A stretch of DNA of 24,207 nt from a virus, in IMG/VR virus record IMGVR_UViG_3300027499_000325, positions 1 to 24,207 of that record. The stretch is one strand, 5' to 3'. Made by a program: the position numbers and the translations under genes. Shown piece after piece: positions 3,046 through 18,004 of the stretch. Each line of letters opens with the position of its first letter. The first letter of the stretch is position 1. The notes below the pieces were generated by a model. That model had not been told where the DNA came from. It saw only the letters and a program-made list of their open reading frames with translations, and did no database searches.

Positions 3046-3654
3046 CTACAACCTACCATCCGCTTTCAATCTACGTTCAATCGTTTTTACTGACTGTTCC
3101 TTCCATTTTTCCCACCCATCCACTGTAGAGCATTTTTCATTGTGTGGCAACATAATATGATTCATAAGCACAGGGTCGATGTGCTTACGACTATCACTTA
3201 AGTATGAGCACCCATCAGCAGTCCATTGGACAAGGTACAGGTTATCCCGTCCAAACGCATCTACCAGTGTTGCCACTTCCTCTTCAAACCCTACACCAGC
3301 CACCACGACATACTTGTGATGATCTTTTACATTCTGTGCAATGTGCTTTGCCAGACACTTACCAAACACATCATTACCAAATGTAGGCTTCATCACCGAT
3401 TCAGAAAGGTGAATGTAGAATTGACGGCAAGACATACCTCCTAGCTCCTTTCTTGCCTTCTCTTTATCAAGGTCATACCAACGCTTAAACACGTTGTTAT
3501 CAATCCCTGCAACACTCAGCACAGCATCCGCTAGAACATCCACCCCTTGCTTGAAAGAGCAAACAAAGGCATTATCAATCCGTTCTAACAACATAGCCAA
3601 CGTATCCTTGCCTGCTCTTGGTGGTGCATTCAATAGTAAGATTGGTTTGTTCAT
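3046..3654 (-). CDS. Deoxynucleoside monophosphate kinase
   Basis: This 202-residue P-loop kinase is similar in layout to T4 gp1-type dNMP kinases, which phosphorylate dNMPs to dNDPs. The Walker A motif is near the N-terminus (NAPPRAGKDT, residues 9-18, K16 binding phosphate). The conserved FKQGVD and FGNDVFGKCL segments fit the nucleotide-binding and lid regions of this family. The start lies 2 nt downstream of the thyX stop, and GAGG 6 nt before the ATG acts as ribosome site. The gene follows thyX, so dUMP methylation and phosphorylation would be co-expressed. The family call is firm. Substrate range is inferred. Confidence 0.85.
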   Translation of the reverse strand: MNKPILLLNAPPRAGKDTLAMLLERIDNAFVCSFKQGVDVLADAVLSVAGIDNNVFKRWYDLDKEKARKELGGMSCRQFYIHLSESVMKPTFGNDVFGKCLAKHIAQNVKDHHKYVVVAGVGFEEEVATLVDAFGRDNLYLVQWTADGCSYLSDSRKHIDPVLMNHIMLPHNEKCSTVDGWEKWKEQSVKTIERRLKADGRL

Positions 3655-3656
3655 TA

Positions 3657-4607
3657 TCAGCCTCGCTTGCTTTCATTAGCAATCAGTTTACGGAATTGAA
3701 TCCAGTTCTTTAATTTACCAGACCAGCAATCATAGTAACGGTCAACATGTGTAACGCCTTCAGGCCACATATCAGGACGTGTTTTAACACATATTGGCAA
3801 ATTCATCGGCGTTGCCTGATGTGTTGTAGGGCTTGCATGTGCTGGCTTTGTTTTGCTACCAATGTTCAGTTTATCAAACACTGCTTCAGCTTTCTCAATG
3901 CTATCATCACACTTACGGTAACTTACTTGAGCACAGCATGATGCGCTTACTTGACGTGCCGTAAATGTTGAAATGTAATCACCATTATTGTCTAGGTAAT
4001 AACGCTTTCCGTTTGCTTCACGATATGTTCTCACATAAGGCACATGCCATTCATCTTCGTATAGCGTTTCATATTCAGCCTTACTCGCTGCCTCATACAT
4101 GCAACGCGCTAATTCTTGAAAATGTGGGTCAGCGTCCTCGTGCATACGGAGATAGAAAAAGTTATTCCACTCTGTACCGCTAATCACCATCTTCACAATC
4201 TGGAATGGTTCATTAAGACGATTAGCAACCTGCTTATGGATACCAAGATCAATCATCTCGTAACAAATACCCTCAACAGTGGCAAAGGCACTCTCCCACA
4301 GTTCTTTTGCTTTCTGAGCAATCTCAGCATCAACCTCTTTATCAGCCACCATCCCTGCTTTGTTTTTACCCCAATGGATCGGTGTCGCATGGTTTTCTTT
4401 CAAGTTCTCAAGCATCTTAGCCACTGGGATTGCACGGGATGATGCTGCATTCTTCTCCAACATGCAGTGGGTGTTCACCTCTGCTAAAATGAACCGAGGA
4501 AACTCGGTCTCAAATGTTGTCATTTTTGTATCACAGTAAGCACTCTGCGATGCTGCTACTACTCGTGCCACGATACCGCCCTTGCCCTTTACTTCTGATA
4601 AATACAT
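3657..4607 (-). CDS. thyX: FAD-dependent thymidylate synthase ThyX
   Basis: This is a flavin-dependent thymidylate synthase, making dTMP from dUMP with methylene-tetrahydrofolate, FAD and NADPH. Its 316 residues begin at MYLSEVKG, chosen because AGGGG lies 6 nt upstream. A 16-residue longer reading frame has no such site. Hallmarks are ILAEVNTH (40-47), NAASSRAIP (53-61) and HKQVANRLNEPFQ (124-136). The phage-type signature THRxxxRNxxSSR is altered: the Arg after His47 is Cys48 and the next basic position is Lys. Activity is therefore uncertain, although everything else is intact. It is followed by dNMP kinase 2 nt downstream. Confidence 0.92.
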   Translation of the reverse strand: MYLSEVKGKGGIVARVVAASQSAYCDTKMTTFETEFPRFILAEVNTHCMLEKNAASSRAIPVAKMLENLKENHATPIHWGKNKAGMVADKEVDAEIAQKAKELWESAFATVEGICYEMIDLGIHKQVANRLNEPFQIVKMVISGTEWNNFFYLRMHEDADPHFQELARCMYEAASKAEYETLYEDEWHVPYVRTYREANGKRYYLDNNGDYISTFTARQVSASCCAQVSYRKCDDSIEKAEAVFDKLNIGSKTKPAHASPTTHQATPMNLPICVKTRPDMWPEGVTHVDRYYDCWSGKLKNWIQFRKLIANESKRG

Positions 4608-6803: not shown

Positions 6804-8579
6804 CTAGAAACTCGCATTCTGTGTTGACATCCACTCATCCTTATCCCACAGCGTGTGAGTAGCAGGGTCGTAATAAACTTCGCAGGCTAACCCAGTCCAT
6901 CCTGTAGAACGTGATTTCAATACATGCACAAACGTGGTATTACGCTCCACCAAATCCTCTGCATTCTTGTTACGTTGCAAGGCAATGTTTACACCTGCTG
7001 AACGGTACTGTGTACCTGACCCGATAATCTGCTCCTCTGTCAGGAATGCACCTTGGCTTGCTGATTTTTCACCACTACCTGACTTGCGAACATGCGAGAT
7101 ATTGAAGATGATGCAGTTATGTTGCTTTACAACTTTCTTCTCCCATGCCATCCACTCATCAACAAACTCTATAGGCTTACCAGAGAACACATCGCTAACT
7201 ACATCAATAACAATAATTTTACATCCACATGCGATAATCAGTTCTTCGATTTGCTCTTTCAGTTTAGAGTAATCACCCCGATCATCCAGTAAAAATAGGC
7301 GGCTTGTCCCATCTTCTCGCTTAAAAAGACGGTGTGCAGCCTCCTCTGCCTCTTTACTTGCCACAAAGTCCATACGTTCCTTTTTATCCGCTATAAGTGC
7401 GATCTTACGGCCAAGATAATGAGAGAGAAGGTTTTCACCGTATTCGCCACTCTCTGCTTCAAGAGACACAACGCCAACATTCAAATCTAACTCAGTCATC
7501 CAATAGGAAACACACTGATTGATTGCACTGCTTTTCCCAGACCCACTTCCAGCAAGTACGTTACAAATGTATCCGTAATTTACACCACCAGCTAACACAT
7601 CATTCACCTTTTTCCACATAGGTGGAAATTTCAGTTTGTCCACCATTGCACGTTGTTTGATTTCTTCGTAGATTTTATCACTGTCAACAATAGCTGCTGA
7701 AGTATATAAACGTGCCTTCCAGAAGTCTGAAATAAAATCTTTTTCCTTCCCGTATTTAATATACTCATCAGCATCTTTATATCTCATTTCCATCACATAT
7801 GCTTTACCTTTAGGTAGCACTTTGCAGATACTTTCTGTTGCATCCTTGCCTGCTTGATCGTTGTCCATACACACGACAATTTTCTTAAACTGGCAAAGCC
7901 ACTCATATTGCGCTGCTAACTCTTTTGCGGCTGAAGGTTCACCGTTTACAGGGCAAACCACTGCAACAGGATCATAAGCATCTTTTCCACGCTGTTTTTG
8001 ATCATCTAAGAGCATTTGGTAAGCTGCCAACATCTTAACCTCTCCACCGACAACTAAGAGTGTATGGTTAAAATTCTTGAACCGGAATTGACCAATCAAA
8101 TCACACTCTTTATCAACCTTTCCTACTGGGTGAGAAAAGTCTTTAGGGAATACTCGTGTTTTGTATCCTGCAAGCATTGAGTTTACGGTAGTTGGCACAT
8201 ACTGCTTAATTGGTTCTCCTGTTGCAGTATCGTACTCATATCGAACACCGAAGTACTTGCTTACTTCATCACGGATTCCACGATAGCCCTTACCGGATAC
8301 ACCTGTATATAACTTAATCCGTTCATTTTCTTCGCTACTAATAATTTCCCGTGTCATTACTTCATCCTCATAATCATCAGAGACATCATTTGTTAAAGCA
8401 TTACGTTTTGCTTTCTCATCATCAGAAAGCACCGTGTAATTACATTTCCAACAGTAACCGCCTTTCCCATCACCATACCAATAAAAGTTATCACCTGCAT
8501 GATCCTCACCATTCTTACGACATGCAGGACATGGGTTCTTACCTACCCTGTAACCGTTGTTTTTCCCTACCTCGTACAT
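6804..8579 (-). CDS. T7 gp4-like DNA primase-helicase
   Basis: This bifunctional replication protein of 591 residues unwinds the fork and makes primers. A zinc-binding domain comes first (CPAC at 17-20 and CWKC at 43-46). The TOPRIM domain has VVGGE (E180) and MDNDQAG (D239, D241). The RecA-like helicase has Walker A AGSGSGKSS (343-351) and Walker B IIVID (455-459). T7 gp4 has 566 residues. The start at MYEVGKNN is chosen because the zinc domain follows directly, AAGGA lies ~10 nt upstream, and a consensus promoter at 8614-8642 would begin transcription just before it. A longer frame to 8990 is therefore rejected. Confidence 0.93.
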   Translation of the reverse strand: MYEVGKNNGYRVGKNPCPACRKNGEDHAGDNFYWYGDGKGGYCWKCNYTVLSDDEKAKRNALTNDVSDDYEDEVMTREIISSEENERIKLYTGVSGKGYRGIRDEVSKYFGVRYEYDTATGEPIKQYVPTTVNSMLAGYKTRVFPKDFSHPVGKVDKECDLIGQFRFKNFNHTLLVVGGEVKMLAAYQMLLDDQKQRGKDAYDPVAVVCPVNGEPSAAKELAAQYEWLCQFKKIVVCMDNDQAGKDATESICKVLPKGKAYVMEMRYKDADEYIKYGKEKDFISDFWKARLYTSAAIVDSDKIYEEIKQRAMVDKLKFPPMWKKVNDVLAGGVNYGYICNVLAGSGSGKSSAINQCVSYWMTELDLNVGVVSLEAESGEYGENLLSHYLGRKIALIADKKERMDFVASKEAEEAAHRLFKREDGTSRLFLLDDRGDYSKLKEQIEELIIACGCKIIVIDVVSDVFSGKPIEFVDEWMAWEKKVVKQHNCIIFNISHVRKSGSGEKSASQGAFLTEEQIIGSGTQYRSAGVNIALQRNKNAEDLVERNTTFVHVLKSRSTGWTGLACEVYYDPATHTLWDKDEWMSTQNASF

Positions 8580-10331: not shown

Positions 10332-10445
10332 GATGTTGATGGCTGTGTTATTGTTTGTTCTTGCTAGTTTGTGTGAGTAATATGAGCAGTATGAGCAGTA
10401 TGAGCAGTATGTGTAAGTGGTTTGTTAAATTTAAGGAGATGTAAA
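10332..10445 (+). other. Intergenic leader with two tiny reading frames
   Basis: The stretch contains a 15-residue hydrophobic frame (10333-10380, MLMAVLLFVLASLCE) with AGGG upstream. A 20-residue frame (10382-10444) follows, encoding MSS three times and then MCKWFVKFKEM. Its stop lies 1 nt before the Rha-like ATG at 10446. These may be a leader peptide system or the remains of a decayed gene. There is no evidence that either is translated. Confidence 0.35.
10382..10408. repeat. Three tandem 9-bp repeats upstream of rha copy 2
   Basis: ATGAGCAGT is repeated three times exactly, then decays into ATGTGTAAG. It lies 38 nt upstream of the Rha-like start. Unit length and copy number equal those of the unrelated-sequence array before the other Rha-like gene (2998-3024). 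Confidence 0.9.
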
Positions 10446-11156
10446 ATGGAAAAGAATTTGATGGTGATTGGTTCTGCTAACGAAACAGTGTTGACGATGT
10501 CTAGCTTAGAGATTGCAGAGTTGACTGGTAAGCAGCATAAGCATGTCCTGACAGACATCCGTAACATGCTGAATAGTCTAAACATTGAATCAGCCGTTTT
10601 CACGGCCGATTACAAAGATAGCAAAGGTCGGATGTATCCATGCTACAATTTACCAAAGCGTGAGACACTCTGCTTAATTGCTGGCTACAATGTTCAGGTT
10701 CGTATGCGTATTATTGATCGATGGCAAGAACTGGAAGCTAAAGGTAAGCCAGACTTGAGTACCGATGTTGGTAAACTGTTAATGATTCAAGAGATGGCAG
10801 CAAAGCAATTAGAGCTTATCTCAGAGAATAAGCGTATCTCGGAATCACTATCTATTGCTGCACCAAAGGCTGAATTTGTTGACAATTTTGTTGATAGCAC
10901 AGGATTAAAAGGTTTCCGTAAAATGGCAAAGATATTTGGTATCAGTGAACGTAGATTCCGACAGTTCTTAGCTGATAACAAAATCATGTATAAGCAGAAC
11001 AAGTGTTGGTTGCCTTACGCTCGGCATATCAATGCAGGACGATTTGTAAATAAAACTGGTGAGTCTCGAGGCCACGCTTTTATCTCTACCTACTTCACAC
11101 CAAAAGGTGAGGTATGGGTTGCTGGCCTATTAAAAGAGGCAGGTGAGATTGCTTAA
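10446..11156 (+). CDS. Rha-family / KilAC-domain phage regulator (copy 2)
   Basis: This 236-residue paralogue of the leftward gene at 2255-2974 shares the Rha-type domain (TMSSLEIAELTGK, CYNLPKRET, LIAGYNVQVRMRII, ~16-100). It also has a KilAC-type C-terminal domain (GFRKMAKIFGISERRFRQFL, ~155-235). The middle helices differ. AAGGAG lies 7 nt before the ATG, and a terminator follows within 25 nt, so it ends the first rightward unit. In temperate phages this architecture serves in regulation or antirepression. Here its target is unknown. Two copies may reflect duplication or domain shuffling with other phages. Confidence 0.88.
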   Translation: MEKNLMVIGSANETVLTMSSLEIAELTGKQHKHVLTDIRNMLNSLNIESAVFTADYKDSKGRMYPCYNLPKRETLCLIAGYNVQVRMRIIDRWQELEAKGKPDLSTDVGKLLMIQEMAAKQLELISENKRISESLSIAAPKAEFVDNFVDSTGLKGFRKMAKIFGISERRFRQFLADNKIMYKQNKCWLPYARHINAGRFVNKTGESRGHAFISTYFTPKGEVWVAGLLKEAGEIA

Positions 11157-11178
11157 TTAAATTGGTGCAATAACAACA

Positions 11179-11211
11179 GAGACATGCTAGTATAGGTGTC
11201 TCTTTTCTTTT
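11179..11211 (+). terminator. Rho-independent terminator before DNA polymerase
   Basis: GAGACA (11179-11184) pairs with TGTCTC (11197-11202) across a 12-nt loop and is followed by TTTTCTTTT. A wobble T-G pair can extend the stem to 7 bp. The stem is short and the loop wide, so partial termination is likely. The polymerase ATG follows 15 nt later. Confidence 0.68.
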
Positions 11212-11225
11212 ATGGGATGCAAAGC

Positions 11226-13184
11226 ATGGAAACATTAGATGGTTTCTATTTTGATATTGAGACTGACGGACTGTATTTGCAATCAAGCAAAATCTGGTAT
11301 GCAAAGTTCAAGAGTCTTGATGGTAAACGGGAATTAGCACTATTTCCGCACAATGATAAGGGTGCAGCAAACAAACTAATGCAGTGGGTTGGTCAATACC
11401 CTGATGGCTGTTATGTGGTATCACACAATGGCTTAGGGTTTGACTTATGGGCTTTATGGAAATTGATGGGGATTAAGCCAGTTGTAGGTAAAGCAGGTAA
11501 AGATTACTTAGGCGGTAAGCACGTTACGTTCATTGATACCTATGTGCTGTCGATGTATATCAACCCAGATTCTAAAGGGCATTCACTTGAGTTCTTAGCA
11601 TCTGGGAACGAGAATGAGAAGATGGACTTCCGTCAGAAATTGATTGATCAAGGGCTGATGGATAAGGCAGCACCAAAAGGACAAGAGTTCTCATTCTTCT
11701 CTGAATCAATGATTGAATACTGTGATGCTGACGTTGAGGCTGGTATTGGTGTATTCAATAAACTGTGGGCTGATGCTAAGGCATTGTATAAAGACTGGGT
11801 TCATCCTTCTTTCCGCCAACTCAGTAAAGACTATTTCCTGTATTCAGCACAGGCTTATACAGGTGTTAAATTCAACGTGGAGAAGGCTAAGGCACTGCTG
11901 GCACATATTGATGAGAAGATGGCAGAGATTAAGGCTATCGTTGACCCTATGTTGCCTAGTCGTGAATTGAAAAGCACTGAGCAAGCATTTTACAAGATTC
12001 CTGCTGCACCGTATAAAAAGAACGGCGATCTTAGTTCGACAATGATTAAATGGCTAGAGAAGCATAATGCTAAAATTGTTGATGGCAAGATTGAAGCGTA
12101 CGGGATGAAAGTTGATATTGTTGCCAATACTGTCTTACCAGTAAAGATGCCGCTTGAGATTGATGATAATGATGAATTGAAGAATTACTTTCTTGAATCA
12201 GGTTGGATACCGCATGAAGATTTTTGGAACTATAAAAATGATCCAGCAACAAAAAAACCTATGCGTGATGCTAATGGTAAACTGATTAAAACATCACCAA
12301 AAATTAAAAGTGATGGTGAGTTGTGTCCTAACCTATTAAAACTGAATGGTGAAGTTCCAGCAAAGGTTGTGAAATACCTCTCTTACCGTAACAGACGTGG
12401 TGTTGTAAAAGGGTGGATAAATAATTGGCGTATTGAATGGGATGGGCGACTAAGTGCTGAGATTAGCGGATACACTCCTACTTTCCGTGTAAAACATAAA
12501 ACAGTAACAAACTGCCCAAAAGCTGATGCAGGTGTTTTGCTAGGAAGTGAAATGCGCGATCTGTTTACTGTTGACAATGGTTGCTGGTACATTGGCACTG
12601 ATGCAGCAGCATTAGAGAATAGGACAGTGGCAGCGTACACAATGAAGTACGATAATGGTGCATTTGCTGATATTGTCCTTAACGGAGATAGCCATTCTAG
12701 AAACGCTTTCATTTTCTTCCCTGATCTGAAAAATAGGTTTGATCCGTGTATGAAAGGGTTGAAAGACTTGCCAGAATTTAAGCCATACCGTAATAAAGCT
12801 AAGACAGGTGCATATTTATTGGCATACGGCGGAGGCGTTGGGAGGTTATCGGCAAGTCTTGGCTTATCTAAATCTGAAGCAAAAAGGGCTTACGATAACT
12901 ACTTCCTAGAGAATGAAGGTCTAGGTAAACTTAAGGAAAACATTGAGAGGTATTACAACACGGTAGGTAAGAAAAGCCATGTACCGGCTTGGGACGGCAG
13001 GATGTTATGTGCCAGAGGTAAGCACACATTGATTAACTTAATTGGGCAAAGTTGCGGCTCAATAGCTATGAGTTATGCAGCCTGTTTCATGGATGCTTGG
13101 CTGGGTGAGATGTATCTCGATGATTTAGGCAGACCTTACTATCTATATAAAGGCAAAAAGGTTAAGCGTGTGAGTATGGTGCAT
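11226..13184 (+). CDS. Family A DNA polymerase (T7 gp5-like), exon 1
   Basis: This is the replicative polymerase, residues 1-653. The 3'-5' exonuclease domain shows FDIETDG (D10, E12) and YCDADVEAG (D167/D169). The polymerase domain has motif A at TDAAALENR (D459) and motif B R522-K526-Y530-Y534. These align with T7 R518, K522, Y526 and Y530, and the Tyr at 530 predicts acceptance of dideoxynucleotides. The exon stops after His653 of motif C. Reading on gives KCCAF and a stop, which removes the catalytic Asp. Joining to 13435-13593 restores HDE and gives 705 residues (T7: 704). The start at METLDG is preferred, but the ribosome site (GGGA) is weak. Confidence 0.93.
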
Positions 13185-13434
13185 AAATGTTGTGCCTTCT
13201 AGCAGGAATGCTAGTCGAACAACTCTCCTAATTCGGTGAAACCCTAACAGAGACCCTAACAAAATAGCTGAGGGCAATACCGAGCAAAGAAGCAATGCTT
13301 CTGTGTGTGGAGGCTATCCCGACAGGGAGTAGGTAGCAAGTGCTATCGAAACGGAGAGAGGCCAGAACGGTCTGTGATCTAGCCCGACACTACAGGAAAC
13401 TGTAGAGTGGTGTAACGAACCACATAACTGATTG
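13185..13434 (+). ncRNA. Group I (IA-like) self-splicing intron, ORF-less, in DNA polymerase motif C
   Basis: The 250-nt insert begins after an exon T and ends in G, as group I introns do. Elements seen: P1 GCAT/GTGC with a terminal U-G (13181-84/13192-95); P10 GTT with exon GAC; P2 13199-13214 (GGAA loop); P3 CTCTCC/GGAGAG (13223-28/13353-58); P4 TCGGT/ACCGA (13233-37/13279-83); P5 CCCT/AGGG (13242-45/13271-74); P6 GC/GT with hairpin P6a (13288-13302); P7 GGCTA/TAGCC (13312-16/13380-84); P7.1 CCC/GGG; P7.2 GGTAGC/GCTATC (13332-47); P8 GGCC/GGTC; P9 13390-13405 (GAAA loop); P9.1 13407-13423. P7.1 and P7.2 point to subgroup IA. There is no endonuclease ORF. Confidence 0.93.
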
Positions 13435-13593
13435 GACGAATACTCATTTGAATGTGAAGATGGTGTAGAGGAGGAGATAACAGCATTGACAGTAAAGGCT
13501 ATTGTAAAGGCCGGTGAATACATGAAATTGCCGTTAGAGTTGGATGGGGAAGGTAAGAAGTCATATAACGGTAGCTGGAAAGACGTTCACTAA
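13435..13593 (+). CDS. Family A DNA polymerase, exon 2
   Basis: These 52 codons begin DEYSFECEDG and end SWKDVH. They contain the catalytic Asp and Glu of motif C, with Asp as residue 654 of the spliced protein (the T7 catalytic residue is also Asp654). The last helix follows. Alone the exon has no start codon or ribosome site and would be meaningless, which supports splicing. The stop TAA is at 13591-13593. No convincing terminator follows, and a new promoter lies at 13623-13652. Confidence 0.92.
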   Translation, partial: DEYSFECEDGVEEEITALTVKAIVKAGEYMKLPLELDGEGKKSYNGSWKDVH

Positions 13594-13622
13594 TTTTTCT
13601 GTAAATTATCCTAAAAAGACAC

Positions 13623-13652
13623 TTGACAGATTGTAAAATAATAGACTACTAT
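13623..13652 (+). promoter_or_regulatory. Sigma70-type promoter after DNA polymerase
   Basis: A consensus -35 TTGACA (13623-13628), an 18-nt spacer and a -10 TACTAT (13647-13652) lie 30 nt after the polymerase stop. It would restart transcription for the small genes, the RNA ligase locus and SSB independently of the intron-bearing message. Confidence 0.65.
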
Positions 13653-13691
13653 CTGTCTTGTGTTATTGCAAACGGAGGTGTTTAACAAAGT

Positions 13692-13862
13692 ATGTATCTC
13701 AACAATTTGAAAAAAGACAAGCCTTATTCCGGATTAGCTAAGGTTGCTCATTTTGAGCATAGAGCTAAGGTAAAGGCTTCACTGGTGAAGAAGAAGCGTT
13801 TGCAGAAAGTAAAAGAGCATGATGCACTTCTTGAAATGGAAGATAAACAAACAGAGGACTAA
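13692..13862 (+). CDS. Small basic protein, 56 residues
   Basis: The frame runs from ATG 13692 to TAA 13860-13862, starting MYLNNLKKDKPYSG. It is lysine-rich in the middle (LVKKKRLQKVKEH) with an acidic tail (MEDKQTED), the kind of charge split seen in small nucleic-acid-binding or host-interacting phage proteins. No family is recognised. GGAGG lies upstream but 13 nt from the ATG, longer than usual. It is the first gene after the promoter at 13623 and ends 2 nt before the next ATG. Confidence 0.6.
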   Translation: MYLNNLKKDKPYSGLAKVAHFEHRAKVKASLVKKKRLQKVKEHDALLEMEDKQTED

Positions 13863-13864
13863 AA

Positions 13865-14134
13865 ATGTCTCGCATTAAAACAATCGAAGATTTACTTGAT
13901 GTTATCAATGAGATTGAGTACCCATTGACGGTAGTTAAGACGGGTAAACTTACTGATGAATACATCTACGATTCAGATAATTTCTTTGTTGTGATTGACA
14001 CAGAACGTCTTGGTGAGGTTGTTATCTTTGATAGTTTGTTTGTTAAAGTGAAGAACGAGGAAGTAAGTCCTGAATGGACTGATGTTGAGGACTTGATTGA
14101 GGCACTTCTTAAAACAGCCATGAAAGTTAAATAG
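13865..14134 (+). CDS. Hypothetical acidic protein, 89 residues
   Basis: The start at MSRIKTIEDLL has GAGG 7 nt upstream. The protein alternates predicted strands and helices (YIYDSDNFFVVIDTERLGEVV, then VEDLIEALLKTAM) and is strongly acidic. No motif is recognised. It ends 8 nt before the RNA ligase stub at 14143, so it originally sat directly in front of an intact ligase gene. Confidence 0.68.
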   Translation: MSRIKTIEDLLDVINEIEYPLTVVKTGKLTDEYIYDSDNFFVVIDTERLGEVVIFDSLFVKVKNEEVSPEWTDVEDLIEALLKTAMKVK

Positions 14135-14142
14135 GGGGAAGT

Positions 14143-14271
14143 ATGCGTAAAATGGCAACAGTGCGTAAGATTGACGATATTCAGCCAATCGAGAATGCAG
14201 ATGCTATTGAGAAGGCTGTGGTAGGTGGATGGAACGTAGTGGTTAAGAAAAAGTATAAACAGGAGTACTGA
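14143..14271 (+). pseudogene. Orphaned 5' fragment of the original RNA ligase gene
   Basis: This 42-codon frame starts with a strong AGGGGG site. Its product begins MRKMATVRKIDDIQPIENAD and continues GGWNVVVKK before ending KYKQEY and a stop. It aligns with the first ~40 residues of the ligase at 14962 (MRKLATIRKID, IEGAD, GGWRVV, KY). It lacks the rest of the OB domain and all catalytic motifs. It uses the phage's usual CGT arginine codons, so it is probably the native start, cut off when the endonuclease gene inserted. Its last codons contain the ribosome site of the next gene. Whether the peptide does anything is unknown. Confidence 0.82.
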
Positions 14272-14272
14272 T

Positions 14273-14984
14273 ATGACTATTATTTGGTTGATATAAAACA
14301 ACAAACACTGTAACTGGGAAAATTTACGTTGGACAACACAAGACAGGAACTGTAGATGATGGGTATCTGGGTAGTGGGAAGATAATTCGACGAGCTATTA
14401 AGAAGTACGGGGATGACGCATTTACAAGGGAAATTTTAGAAATTTGCGGATCAAAAGAAGAGGCTAATACTGCCGAAGAAAAGTGGATTACTAAACTAGA
14501 CTCAACAAACAAAGACATTGGCTACAACATAACACCACATGCATATGGTGGACAACCTTTAAGTAATGAATCTAGACAAAAGATTTCTGAAAAAATGAAA
14601 GGAAGAAAACTCAGCGAGGAGACAAAAGAGAAGATGAGGAAACCTAAACCTCCACGCTCTGACGAGCACACAGAAAATCAACGGAAGTCTAGAATAGGTA
14701 AAAGGTGGTATCACAACCCCATCTCAGGTGATTCAAGACAGTTTCAAATGGGAGAGCAACCTTTAGATTGGGTCATGGGCAGACCAGAAGCTCACATGGA
14801 AGCAGTTAGAACAGACTCAGCAAACAATAAAAGAAGCATTAGTGGTAAGCAGAAAGTTGTCAGTGATGAAGTACGTTTGAAAATTAGTAAGTCTTTGATG
14901 GGACACTCTGTTAGCAATGAAACTAAACAAAAAATTAGTCAGTCTTTAAAGGAGTATAATAATGAGAAAACTTGCAACAATTAG
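14273..14984 (+). pseudogene. GIY-YIG/NUMOD3 homing endonuclease gene, frameshifted
   Basis: ATG 14273 has AGGAG 7 nt upstream and encodes MTIIWLI, then TAA at 14294-14296. The matching continuation YKTTNTVTGKIYVGQH is in another frame from 14292 and stays open to 14984. Restoring two nucleotides in the ATATAAA run would give one protein of about 237 residues, close to I-TevI length (245). The GIY part is LIY and the YIG part IYVG. The conserved Arg lies in KIIRRAIKKYG and the Glu in AEEKWI. At least two NUMOD3-like segments follow (LSEETKEKM, VSNETKQKI). AGA/AGG/ATA codons differ from neighbouring genes. Only fragments would be made unless frameshifting occurs. The 3' end overlaps the ligase start. 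Confidence 0.87.
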
Positions 14985-15930
14985 GAAAATAGACTCCATT
15001 ATCCGCATCGAAGGCGCAGATAACATTTGTGTATATGGAGTAGGTGGTTGGAGAGTTGTAGATGCAATTGGCAAATACCGAGTAGGTGATTTCGCAGTTT
15101 ACTGTGAGATTGATAGCTGGGTAAGTAAAGAGTTAGCACCATTCTTGTTTGAAGGTAAATCGTATAACGGGATTGAAGGGGCACGTCTCAAGACAAAGAA
15201 ACTCCGTGGTGTAGTATCTCAAGGGCTGCTGTTGCCATTGAGTGTATTAGAAGGCAAAGATGTTTCAGATGTTCTTGGTATTGTGAAGTGGGATAACGAG
15301 AATTTACAGAACACTTCTAATGGATCACCTAAAGGGAATTTCCCGTCATTCATCCCTAAGACTGACCAAGAACGTGTTCAGAACTTGAAACAAGAGGTAG
15401 AGAGTAAAAGAGGCAATGAGTTTGAAGTAACAATCAAACTTGATGGTAGCTCAATCACGATGTACCATTATAACGGTGTTGATGGTGTTTGCTCTCGTAA
15501 CCTTGACCTACGGCCAGACATGCCTAGTGCTTTCTGGGATATTGCACGAGAAATTAACATCCATGAAAAGATTAAGAGCACAGGACGTAACCTAGCATTT
15601 CAGGGAGAGTTGGTTAGCCATAAGATTCAAGGGAACTACGAAAAAGTAGATAAGCCGTATGTGTTTATCTATGATGTGTTCGACATTGATAAACAGCAAT
15701 ACTTACTGCCAGAAGAGCGTCGTAATCTTTGCAAAGAGCTTGACGTAAGCCATGTGCCGTTATATGATTCAGCATTCGTCCTTAATCACAGTGTTGCTGA
15801 TCTGATTGATCTAGCAGACGGTGAAGGGATGAATAAAGGTGTTAAGCGTGAGGGACTTGTGTTTAAGTCTTGCACTGATGACTTTAGCTTCAAGGTAATC
15901 AGTAATTCGTACCTGCTAAAACGTGGGTGA
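14962..15930 (+). CDS. RNA ligase, DRB0094/Rnl5-like family
   Basis: This ATP-dependent RNA ligase has 322 residues. An N-terminal OB-type domain (~1-100, with FAVYCEIDSW, LRGVVSQGLLLP) comes first, as in the Deinococcus Rnl5 family. The adenylyltransferase domain has motif I KLDGSS (K159), CSRNLDL, FQGELV (E216), REGLVFKS and FKVIS (K311). It seals nicks with an RNA 3'-OH end, so a role in RNA repair is likely but inferred. AGGAG lies 7 nt before the ATG inside the endonuclease gene, and the two overlap by 23 nt. The first ~30 codons use AGA, AGG and ATA, unlike the rest, suggesting a 5' end imported with the endonuclease. Confidence 0.88.
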   Translation: MRKLATIRKIDSIIRIEGADNICVYGVGGWRVVDAIGKYRVGDFAVYCEIDSWVSKELAPFLFEGKSYNGIEGARLKTKKLRGVVSQGLLLPLSVLEGKDVSDVLGIVKWDNENLQNTSNGSPKGNFPSFIPKTDQERVQNLKQEVESKRGNEFEVTIKLDGSSITMYHYNGVDGVCSRNLDLRPDMPSAFWDIAREINIHEKIKSTGRNLAFQGELVSHKIQGNYEKVDKPYVFIYDVFDIDKQQYLLPEERRNLCKELDVSHVPLYDSAFVLNHSVADLIDLADGEGMNKGVKREGLVFKSCTDDFSFKVISNSYLLKRG

Positions 15931-15954
15931 TAGCAGGATAGTAGGCAAGTGACA

Positions 15955-15969
15955 GAGGAATGTTTCCTC
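15955..15969 (+). other. Small hairpin before SSB-like gene
   Basis: GAGGAA pairs with TTCCTC across a 3-nt loop in the 60-nt gap before the SSB-like gene. No T tract follows, so it is not a terminator. It may be an RNA processing or mRNA-stabilising element ahead of a gene expected to be highly expressed. Confidence 0.4.
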
Positions 15970-15990
15970 AAGATAAATTAGGAGATGTAG

Positions 15991-17004
15991 ATGTTTACAC
16001 CAAAAGAAGTTTCCAATGATTTTGTTCAAGTTGTTCCAGAAGAGGGCTTAAATGCTTGTTGTGTAGGACTGTTGGTGTATCTTGGTGAGCACAAGAAATT
16101 GCCACGATTCGCTAAGGATGGGCAAGGTAACATTGAGTTAGACAATGATGGAAAAAAGAAAATCATCTTCCCTAAAGTGAAGGATGGTAAAGAGGAGACG
16201 GTTAAAAAAGTTGGTGTGTATGTTGACCTTCTTGACCAGACACATGATTATGGTGATGAGATTGGTGTAAAGAACATCCGTCTGCCATTGCATAAAAGTC
16301 TGTTTGGCGTAAGTGAAGGTATCAACTATGTTCCAGTTGCACCACGAGACACAAACGGTAATTACATTAAAGGGAAGGCTTGGACATTAGCTCCTGCATC
16401 GATTTGGCAAAAGTTAGCTGCAGTAACAAAGACAGCAGAAGGAAAGACAGTAAAAGATATTATTTTTGAGCCTAGCTACAAAAACCCTAACCTAAATAAT
16501 ATTGGCTTGTTGCTTGGTAAGCCATTCATGGTTAATGTTGAGGTAAAGACATCAGAGAAACAAGGTAAGACGTTCTACAATACATCGGTGAAGTCTCCAG
16601 TTCCACTGATGAAGAACTTGACACCAAAAGAGCCGCTCATCTGGTCTGTGTCTGTAGGATTTGATGACAAAGATTTACTGGATAAGAAAGATGAATTGGG
16701 TGGTGCATGTAAGTTTGACCTGATTCGTATGTCTGATCTTCGTAAGATTGTATTAGCAGAAGATTACGAAGGTAGTGAGATTCAGAAGGCTGTTCAATCA
16801 AAAATGAACGAGAAAGAATTGATTGAGAAAGCTAAAGAGTATCATGCTAAACAGATTGCAGCAGATAAGGATTTGCAAGAAGTAATGGAAGAGATTGCTA
16901 AACGTAATGGCGGAGTATCTACATCTGTATCAACAGATACAGCAGCACCAACGCTACAAGAACGAAAGTTTGTAGCTGATTACGATGATGATATTCCGTT
17001 CTAA
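15991..17004 (+). CDS. Single-stranded DNA-binding protein (phage type)
   Basis: The 337-residue protein ends in DYDDDIPF, almost the tail of bacterial SSB (E. coli ends DFDDDIPF). That tail recruits replication and repair partners. The body has a beta-rich core (LNACCVGLLVYLG, KVGVYVDLLDQ, FMVNVEVKTSEKQGKTFY) consistent with an OB fold. A helical, charged region (~265-310) follows, then a Ser/Thr-rich linker. It is longer than T7 gp2.5 (232 residues). Position between the ligase and the exonuclease fits the T7-like replication set. GGAG precedes the ATG and a strong terminator follows. The role is inferred from the tail and the neighbours. Confidence 0.8.
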   Translation: MFTPKEVSNDFVQVVPEEGLNACCVGLLVYLGEHKKLPRFAKDGQGNIELDNDGKKKIIFPKVKDGKEETVKKVGVYVDLLDQTHDYGDEIGVKNIRLPLHKSLFGVSEGINYVPVAPRDTNGNYIKGKAWTLAPASIWQKLAAVTKTAEGKTVKDIIFEPSYKNPNLNNIGLLLGKPFMVNVEVKTSEKQGKTFYNTSVKSPVPLMKNLTPKEPLIWSVSVGFDDKDLLDKKDELGGACKFDLIRMSDLRKIVLAEDYEGSEIQKAVQSKMNEKELIEKAKEYHAKQIAADKDLQEVMEEIAKRNGGVSTSVSTDTAAPTLQERKFVADYDDDIPF

Positions 17005-17023
17005 AACAAATTGAAGGTGAGAG

Positions 17024-17049
17024 GCAGCAAGGAATCCTTGCTGCTTTTT
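17024..17049 (+). terminator. Rho-independent terminator after SSB-like gene
   Basis: A perfect 9-bp stem, GCAGCAAGG/CCTTGCTGC (17024-17032/17036-17044), has a 3-nt loop and is followed by TTTTT. It lies 20 nt past the SSB stop and 35 nt before the exonuclease ATG. No clear promoter follows it, so the exonuclease and later genes probably depend on readthrough. Confidence 0.88.
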
Positions 17050-17083
17050 ATGTTTGTATGGACACTAATAGATTGGTAACAAA

Positions 17084-18004
17084 ATGGATTTATACATTGA
17101 CGCTGACAGCCTGTTGTATATGTACGCTTTCTCTCAACAATCGACAATAACAACAGTAAAGCATACACCGTCTGGCAGAGAGAAGCAGTTTAAGAACAAA
17201 ACACTTGCAAAGGACTTCATCAAATCTTGGGTAGCTGAAGATAACGACAAGCGATCAGAGTGTGATTTTGAAATAGAGCAGACTTATGAGCTAACGGGAG
17301 ACATTAACCTAGCAGGTCATTTGTTTGACCAGAGGATTAGCAGCATTGCCAAGGATGTAAGCCAGTATAAAAAGATTGGAAAAACTTATGTCTGCATTCA
17401 GGGTGAAGGAAATTACCGTAAGGCTTACCCTGCAAAGTTTGTGAAGTATAAAGAAAATCGAAAGTCAGATAAGCCGATCCTGTTTGAAGATTTATACTGG
17501 TACGTTAAGCATAAATACAATACCAACTGCATTGTTGTGGATGGTGAAGAGACTGATGATTTTGTGTGTCGTAAAGTATATGAAGGTAATGTGGTAGCAA
17601 TGTGCGATAAAGACATTGTTGCCAATAGTGTTGGATGGCTTTATAACTATCAACACAATTCCTTCTTTAATAATACCGATGAGATGCGCTGGAACAAATT
17701 TTGTATGCAGCTTCTTACTGGTGATGCAACAGATAACATTGACGGGATTAAAATTCTATCTGAGCAAGATAAGAAACTTTACGATATACCAGCTTCTAGG
17801 CGGTCTGTAGGCGATGCAACAGCTAAGGTGATACTTTCTACCGTTAAGACTGAGAAAGAGGCTTTACAGGCGATTCTGAGCCTTTATGAGAATGCTTACC
17901 TTGATGATGGCAGAGAGAGATTCAAAGAGATGGCTTTCTTCCTATGGATGGCTAGATATAAGGGTCAAATGTTTGATGTGCTAGAGTATATGGAAGGATT
18001 GTAA
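17084..18004 (+). CDS. 5'-3' exonuclease (T7 gp6-like, FEN family)
   Basis: This 306-residue FEN/PIN-type nuclease has the expected acidic metal-binding clusters: YIDADS (D6, D8), DGEETDDF (E155, E156, D158, D159), CDKD (D175, D177) and GDATDN (D214, D217). T7 gp6 (300 residues) removes RNA primers and degrades DNA for recombination. The same role is likely here. It begins just after the terminator at 17024-17049, and its stop overlaps the HNH gene's ATG as TAATG. Confidence 0.9.
   Translation: MDLYIDADSLLYMYAFSQQSTITTVKHTPSGREKQFKNKTLAKDFIKSWVAEDNDKRSECDFEIEQTYELTGDINLAGHLFDQRISSIAKDVSQYKKIGKTYVCIQGEGNYRKAYPAKFVKYKENRKSDKPILFEDLYWYVKHKYNTNCIVVDGEETDDFVCRKVYEGNVVAMCDKDIVANSVGWLYNYQHNSFFNNTDEMRWNKFCMQLLTGDATDNIDGIKILSEQDKKLYDIPASRRSVGDATAKVILSTVKTEKEALQAILSLYENAYLDDGRERFKEMAFFLWMARYKGQMFDVLEYMEGL

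Follow-up and report, generated by a model that had tools for sequence, protein, structure and literature searches.

The stretch of DNA analyzed here (the window) comprises 24,207 nt from a virus of microbes, positions 1-24,207 of the IMG/VR record IMGVR_UViG_3300027499_000325. On its plus strand, a gene for a family-A DNA polymerase is followed by two small genes, a truncated RNA ligase start (the stub), a GIY-YIG/NUMOD3 endonuclease gene, and a full RNA ligase gene, and then by an SSB-like gene, nucleases, and nrdA/nrdB. Names of window genes without a Pfam match are our own reading of the sequence. The features of the ligase locus are collected in Table 1. A second record (L001) was found to be 100% identical to the window over 10551-17522 (6972 nt), and the two records may represent the same virus population.

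Table 1. Features of the RNA ligase locus, in positions of the window.
Feature	Coordinates	Strand	Basis and remarks
Putative stranded old ligase start (stub)	14143..14271	+	Homology to the N-termini of type-A RNA ligases over 36 codons (to 14250), followed by 6 unrelated codons and a stop
SD (AGGAG, 14261-14265) and ATG (14273) of the endonuclease	14261..14275	+	Sequence; ATG 1 nt after the stub stop
GIY-YIG endonuclease gene with NUMOD3 motifs, Seg-like	14273..14984	+	PF07460, 2.6e-10; PF19835 (SegE_GIY-YIG), 4.6e-6; PF01541, 0.0019 (below that model's cut-off)
SD (AGGAG, 14950-14954) and ATG (14962) of the working ligase	14950..14964	+	Inside the 3′ end of the endonuclease gene
Putative replacement 5′ end of the ligase, codons 1-41	14962..15084	+	Codons 21-41 type B by A/B profile
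Ligase body: rest of the OB fold and nucleotidyltransferase domain	15085..15930	+	PF09414, 3.2e-28; motif KLDGSS intact; codons 42-95 type-A-like

The stub, the endonuclease gene, and the full ligase gene of the window

The stub translates as MRKMATVRKIDDIQPIENADAIEKAVVGGWNVVVKK followed by KYKQEY and a stop codon, and is preceded by its own SD sequence (GGGGGA, 14134-14139). Its product matches the OB-fold model PF21189 (PHA02142) in Pfam with E=2e-10, over profile positions 1-34. The claim of the first-pass annotation, that the stub and the full ligase encode similar N-termini from DNA that differs widely, was borne out, the two being 58% identical in protein and 57% in DNA over the 36 shared codons. 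The best match of the stub is the ligase start of L074, with identities of 92% (protein) and 79% (DNA), and the stub is thus no chance match.

The GIY-YIG gene lies between the stub and the ligase, and holds the ribosome site and start codon of the latter in its 3′ end, both as described in the first-pass annotation, the endonuclease stop codon (14982-14984) lying downstream of the ligase ATG. A GIY-YIG domain and DNA-binding NUMOD motifs were recognized by Pfam. One correction concerns the reading frame, which is not intact: the frame that starts at the ATG reads MTIIWLI and then a stop, seven codons in all, and the GIY-YIG/NUMOD3 body is open in another frame (14292-14984). Since the start codon and the body are in different frames, the endonuclease is probably inactivated, its reading frame having been lost since the proposed invasion. 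The break is present in both assemblies, that of L001 being identical, although these may be one population. The position of the endonuclease ATG, directly behind the stub stop codon, suggests that translation of the endonuclease was coupled to that of the stub.

The full ligase (14962-15930; translation MRKLATIRKIDSIIRIEGADNICVYGVGGWRVVDAIGKYRVGDF...) begins within the last codons of the endonuclease gene. It matches PF21189 (E=8e-22) and PF09414 RNA_ligase (E=3e-28) in Pfam, and has the make-up of a PHA02142-type enzyme, with an N-terminal OB fold, an RNA ligase domain, and a KxDG motif (EVTIKLDGSS).

The nearest relatives by polymerase (60%), L272 and L277, carry no RNA ligase in 84-90 kb. 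The invasion proposed for the window may, therefore, have happened in another phage, and the three-part block may have been acquired whole. A nucleotide search of named phages with the window returned a single 78-nt match and nothing more, a search for close relatives through the SSB gene returned the same contig only, and the GTDB genomes searched held six diverged ligases, none of them closer to that of the window.

Two further observations were made in the window, apart from the ligase locus. The polymerase gene is split by a 250-nt insertion without an ORF (13185-13434), exactly at MVH|DEYSFEC (motif C). By eye, the insertion has features of a group I intron (TTCGGTGAAACCC, GGGCAATACCGAGC; ends ...ATTG|GAC), and it is likely to be one; an Rfam search gave no match to it. 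The two polymerase parts are contiguous, without the insertion, in the relatives L271-L275 and L277, and the polymerase gene of another relative is interrupted by ~830 nt (L276:4605-5434), possibly by another intron, with or without an endonuclease. Elsewhere, 2255-2974 on the minus strand and 10422-11156 on the plus strand encode two diverged paralogues of a phage regulatory/antirepressor-like protein, with a common VLTMSSLEIAELTGK... start.

Ligase 5′-end types and the composition of the window ligase

A total of 237 ligase hits was collected from viral contigs. Their first ~41 codons fall into two main types, A (GGWxVVVKKGEFxVGD) and B (ICxYxVxGWxVVDxxGKYxVGD), and profiles built for both 5′-end types were used for A/B scoring. 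On a tree of the ligase bodies (codon 42 onward), the 5′-end type changes 13-15 times, at least 7-11 of these changes being forced by well-supported branches; the 5′ end thus has a history of its own.

By the A/B profile, the stub is purely of type A (+19/+45 bits). Codons 21-41 of the full ligase of the window score -41.8 bits, compared with at least +28.6 for every type-A member. Codons 42-95 score +23.2 bits, against 95th percentiles of 3.6 for type B and 22.2 for type A, one diverged B member scoring higher; beyond codon 95 the score is neutral. By the profile, on which this reading rests, the full ligase appears to be a hybrid whose two parts meet near codon 41. Since codons 1-20 score as A-like (+8.4 bits) and codons 21-41 as type B, the imported 5′ piece may itself be a mosaic.

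The free body tree places the window ligase away from the lineage of the stub, whose best match is L074 (support, 98/93). AU tests reject no placement of the body, which is ~50% identical to all relatives and sits on a long branch. Among the collected ligases, no phage with the ligase body of the window and an unbroken type-A start was found. Three of four arginine codons within ligase codons 1-36 are AGR, compared with one of 13 in the body; codon usage was considered as proof that the 5′ end and the endonuclease had arrived jointly, and was rejected, the overall codon score lying within the spread of ordinary genes.

Stub loci, switch points, and endonucleases at ligase starts

A scan upstream of all B-type ligases yielded exactly three stubs (81.7, 61.8, and 52.6 bits; next best, 9.7). 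These lie in the window, L152, and L248, three unrelated loci with the same three-part anatomy, an endonuclease being present between the stub and the ligase in each. A stub with a full ligase but no endonuclease, which the first-pass annotation had named as the case that would speak against invasion, was not encountered.

The 87-kb contig L152 carries a type-A stub (3500-3604), an eroded EndoVII endonuclease gene, and, at 3995, a full ligase whose 5′ end is of type B. The 58-kb contig L248 carries a type-A stub (8439-8561), an intact EndoVII endonuclease gene extending to 9112, and, likewise, a full ligase with a B-type 5′ end. Both endonucleases match PF02945 (6.5e-16 in L152 and 1.2e-16 in L248), and belong to an EndoVII/HNH family that is unrelated to the GIY-YIG enzyme of the window. 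The 5′ end of the L152 ligase has an identity of 0.76 to B_L218 and of 0.50 to A_L156, and its body one of 0.53 and 0.67, respectively; the L152 stub is 81% identical to A_L156. The pattern is weaker in L248, where the identity of the 5′ end is 0.71 to B_L218 and 0.48-0.51 to an A clade, that of the body is 0.51 and 0.55-0.58, and the stub is 76-85% identical to the same A clade as the body. By these comparisons, the lineage of the stub is that of the ligase body in both loci, while the working 5′ end comes from elsewhere, as predicted by the invasion model of the first-pass annotation.

Stub ends cluster at codons 28-36, with a further break at codon ~49 in L299. There (L299:2367-2938), a 53-codon ligase stub, broken at FCE, is followed by an EndoVII endonuclease gene whose ATG overlaps the stop codon of the stub, and no ligase lies downstream; this locus may represent a failed rescue.

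Sharp switch points were observed in two pairs of ligases. L022 and its near-copies have a B-type 5′ end on a body identical to that of L064, with DNA that is 100% identical after codon 41. In successive 30-nt segments from the ATG, the identity between L022 and L064 is 63, 46, 40, 50, and 93%, and then 100% throughout; the next ~5.1 kb are 97% identical. The DNA before the L022 ATG reads KIKNSLKDYY, in the same register as the endonuclease tail KISQSLKEYN of the window (rank 2 of 147 upstream regions; shuffle P=0.003), and is a probable scar of a lost endonuclease. In Bobbio, a cultured phage (MN812694.1, Otagovirus), the ligase start is overlapped by an EndoVII gene and the ligase 5′ end is diverged, the first 150 nt being 74% identical to the UNO-G1W1 ligase and the rest 89%; the control comparison of UNO with Ep020 shows no step (81% and 80%). 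Bobbio has no stub, and its endonuclease gene fills an intergenic gap that is present in UNO-G1W1 (the empty site). In both pairs, the 5′-end replacement stops at about codon 41-50.

Relative to L064, L022 has also lost most of a ~370-nt gene upstream of the ligase in this exchange, which places the left edge of that event in the neighboring gene. Separately, L006 and L010 share 92-96% identity apart from ~110 nt inside the ligase (L006:1538-1650) and the ligase 5′ end; no endonuclease was seen nearby, and further patchwork exchange is a possible explanation.

Of 30 distinct B-type ligases, 8 have an endonuclease gene immediately upstream, compared with 1 of 68 A-type ligases (Fisher p=2.6e-4), a count that covers the EndoVII and GIY-YIG families only and two sets that were sampled differently. 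Seven ligase-side EndoVII proteins, used as queries, retrieved 23 relatives. Each of the 11 best (at least 131 bits), several of which are contigs already in the ligase collection, is located at a ligase start (ten immediately upstream of it, and one immediately behind a stub); this is true of none of the 12 weaker relatives. In these sequences, one EndoVII subfamily is thus confined to ligase starts, a fixed target location for which both an empty (UNO-G1W1) and a filled site (Bobbio) are at hand. The catalytic and zinc residues (CxxC, DHxH, R, and CxxC-N) are invariant in the aligned EndoVII endonucleases, among them those of L248 and Bobbio.

The hunt for the same endonuclease with a ligase 5′ end in other phages, as suggested in the first-pass annotation, had a mixed outcome: the closest relatives of the GIY-YIG gene (55% identical; L083 and L084) lie away from ligases, and the same gene order was found with the unrelated EndoVII/HNH enzymes of L152 and L248. 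The two endonuclease families, therefore, seem to have reached the same solution. Small GIY-YIG genes near the ligases of L005 and L062 were considered as further cases and set aside, being of a different type and having no visible stub.

Interpretation and comparison with known systems

It is probable, judging from the loci described above, that the window records an intronless homing event with co-conversion of the 5′ end of the target gene. In the donor, a free-standing homing endonuclease gene would have lain just upstream of a ligase with diverged (type-B) first ~41 codons, with a slight overlap between the two. During co-infection, the endonuclease would cut an ordinary (type-A) ligase gene within about codons 28-50, and repair from the donor would copy the endonuclease gene together with the diverged 5′ end. 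On the right side, recombination with the recipient ligase within a conserved stretch, codons ~41-53 (VGDLAVYCEIDSW), would re-create a complete reading frame, equipped with an SD and an ATG of its own. On the left side, where there is no homology, the old start would be joined at or near the cut, and left stranded as the stub. In the window, the endonuclease would have lost its reading frame afterwards. We infer that the endonucleases cut type-A and spare type-B ends, that repair takes this route, and that the stub drives translation of the endonuclease. The invasion proposed in the first-pass annotation, near ligase codon ~38 and with a diverged copy of the first ~40 codons, gains support from L152, L248, L022/L064, and Bobbio; in the window itself, it is the A/B profile that speaks for a hybrid ligase.

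The endonuclease could instead have come with an entire foreign ligase, which took the place of the resident gene and left the stub as the only trace of it; the right crossover would then lie beyond the ligase and not at codon ~41. Whole-gene replacement would fit the even divergence of the window ligase from its family (0.58 in the 5′ end and 0.49 in the body; family means, 0.73 and 0.62) and the separation of its body from the relatives of the stub on the tree, but it is unlikely, given the change from B to A-like scores at codon 42 and bodies that are demonstrably resident in L152, L248, and L022. Alternatively, the newcomers might be the stub and the endonuclease, a fragment made up of a type-A ligase start and the endonuclease having landed upstream of an untouched resident ligase with a B-type start. 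We regard this as quite improbable: the stubs of L152 and L248 match the lineage of the body, and are thus resident there, and the nearest polymerase relatives of the window have no RNA ligase, even though L223 and L239, with a pol-ligase-exonuclease order like that of the window, carry B-type ligases and the window body has no known specific hybrid partner.

An old tandem duplication, in which the upstream one of two complete ligase genes was truncated by the endonuclease, would account for a stub and a full gene that are homologous and as diverged as old duplicates would be. It is, nevertheless, very unlikely, as the 237 ligase hits include neither two complete tandem ligases nor a stub and ligase without an endonuclease, the full genes are of type B in all three stub loci, and the stub ends cluster. 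Splicing of the stub and the full gene into one message, by a group I intron or another spliced element, deserves hardly any credence. The likely intron in the nearby polymerase gene lends it some plausibility, but the ligase locus gave no match in Rfam (a search that also missed the polymerase insertion), and there is no room for an intron core, with only ~20 nt between the stub homology and the endonuclease, and the endonuclease overlapping the ligase start. The full ligase, moreover, has its own SD, ATG, and complete OB fold.

Under the co-conversion model, selfish genes seem to have hit repeatedly on a way of disrupting a gene and repairing it in one stroke. A broader proposal, to which we give somewhat less than an even chance, is that the type-B 5′ end serves as a rescue cassette carried along by ligase-specific endonucleases: only the ordinary end would be cut by the nuclease, and a functional end that cannot be cut would be restored by the cassette. 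Such a natural home-and-rescue gene drive would have been used repeatedly by unrelated phage nucleases, and would be a source of much of the 5′-end diversity in the ligase family.

The usual landing sites of selfish endonucleases are intergenic regions and self-splicing introns, since insertion into a gene would kill it, and the free-standing endonucleases of T4 usually lie between complete genes. Here, the endonucleases appear to land inside the target, leaving a duplicated, stranded start, and to rebuild the harder end of the gene, where a ribosome site and a start codon are needed. This would explain why the first ~41 codons of the ligase have a different history from the rest. A literature search, with most subscription journals outside its scope, turned up no phage endonuclease described as replacing the 5′ end of its target.

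The closest parallel is found in fungal mitochondria, where mobile endonuclease ORFs insert a foreign 3′ end into atp6, atp9, cox2, and nad3, leaving the native end stranded (Allomyces macrogynus atp6; Glomus atp6, atp9, cox2, and nad3; PMC3630166). In both settings, an endonuclease gene is inserted with a diverged copy of the target end, the native end lies beyond the endonuclease, and the hybrid gene is usable. A native gene end is stranded beyond an endonuclease ORF in the window, L152, and L248. The stranded end matches the relatives of the body, with a foreign working end, in L152 and L248; in the window the A/B profile points the same way, but the tree and the AU tests do not place the body. 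The fungal elements differ in that the inserted piece is the 3′ (C-terminal) end of a mitochondrial gene, whereas here it is the 5′ end of a phage gene, with a ribosome site and a start codon supplied anew, and in that two unrelated endonuclease families (GIY-YIG and EndoVII/HNH) are found at the same gene. The arrangement in the window, thus, works like the Allomyces/Glomus element, and is not classed as a member.

Free-standing homing endonuclease genes that split phage enzyme genes are represented by mobE in nrdA of phage Aeh1 and mobA in T4 gene 60 (PMC2988022). Those genes end up as separate coding regions, whereas at the ligase the front part is duplicated and exchanged, and a single-chain enzyme is encoded once more. 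It is established that phage endonucleases co-convert flanking DNA (PMC2988022). As in this co-conversion and in the marker exclusion by T4 free-standing endonucleases (PMC2988022), an endonuclease beside its target would here copy flanking donor sequence into the recipient. F-CphI of cyanophage S-PM2, a DHHRN/EndoVII-motif enzyme, shares the CxxC...DHxH...R...CxxC-N pattern with the L248/Bobbio-type endonucleases, and in both cases the neighboring gene is perhaps protected by its own sequence (PMC6083498). The S-PM2 genome is spared through an intron in psbA, whereas the candidate protection here is a recoded 5′ end.

The arrangement also has an engineered counterpart in the home-and-rescue and cleave-and-rescue gene drives, in which a nuclease is combined with a recoded piece of the target that restores function (PMC7968924, PMC7951863). 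Those are synthetic Cas9 systems, whereas the phage case, known here from sequence, would be their natural counterpart. It is directly testable, because the cultured phage Bobbio carries an intact endonuclease and its close relative UNO-G1W1 the empty site.
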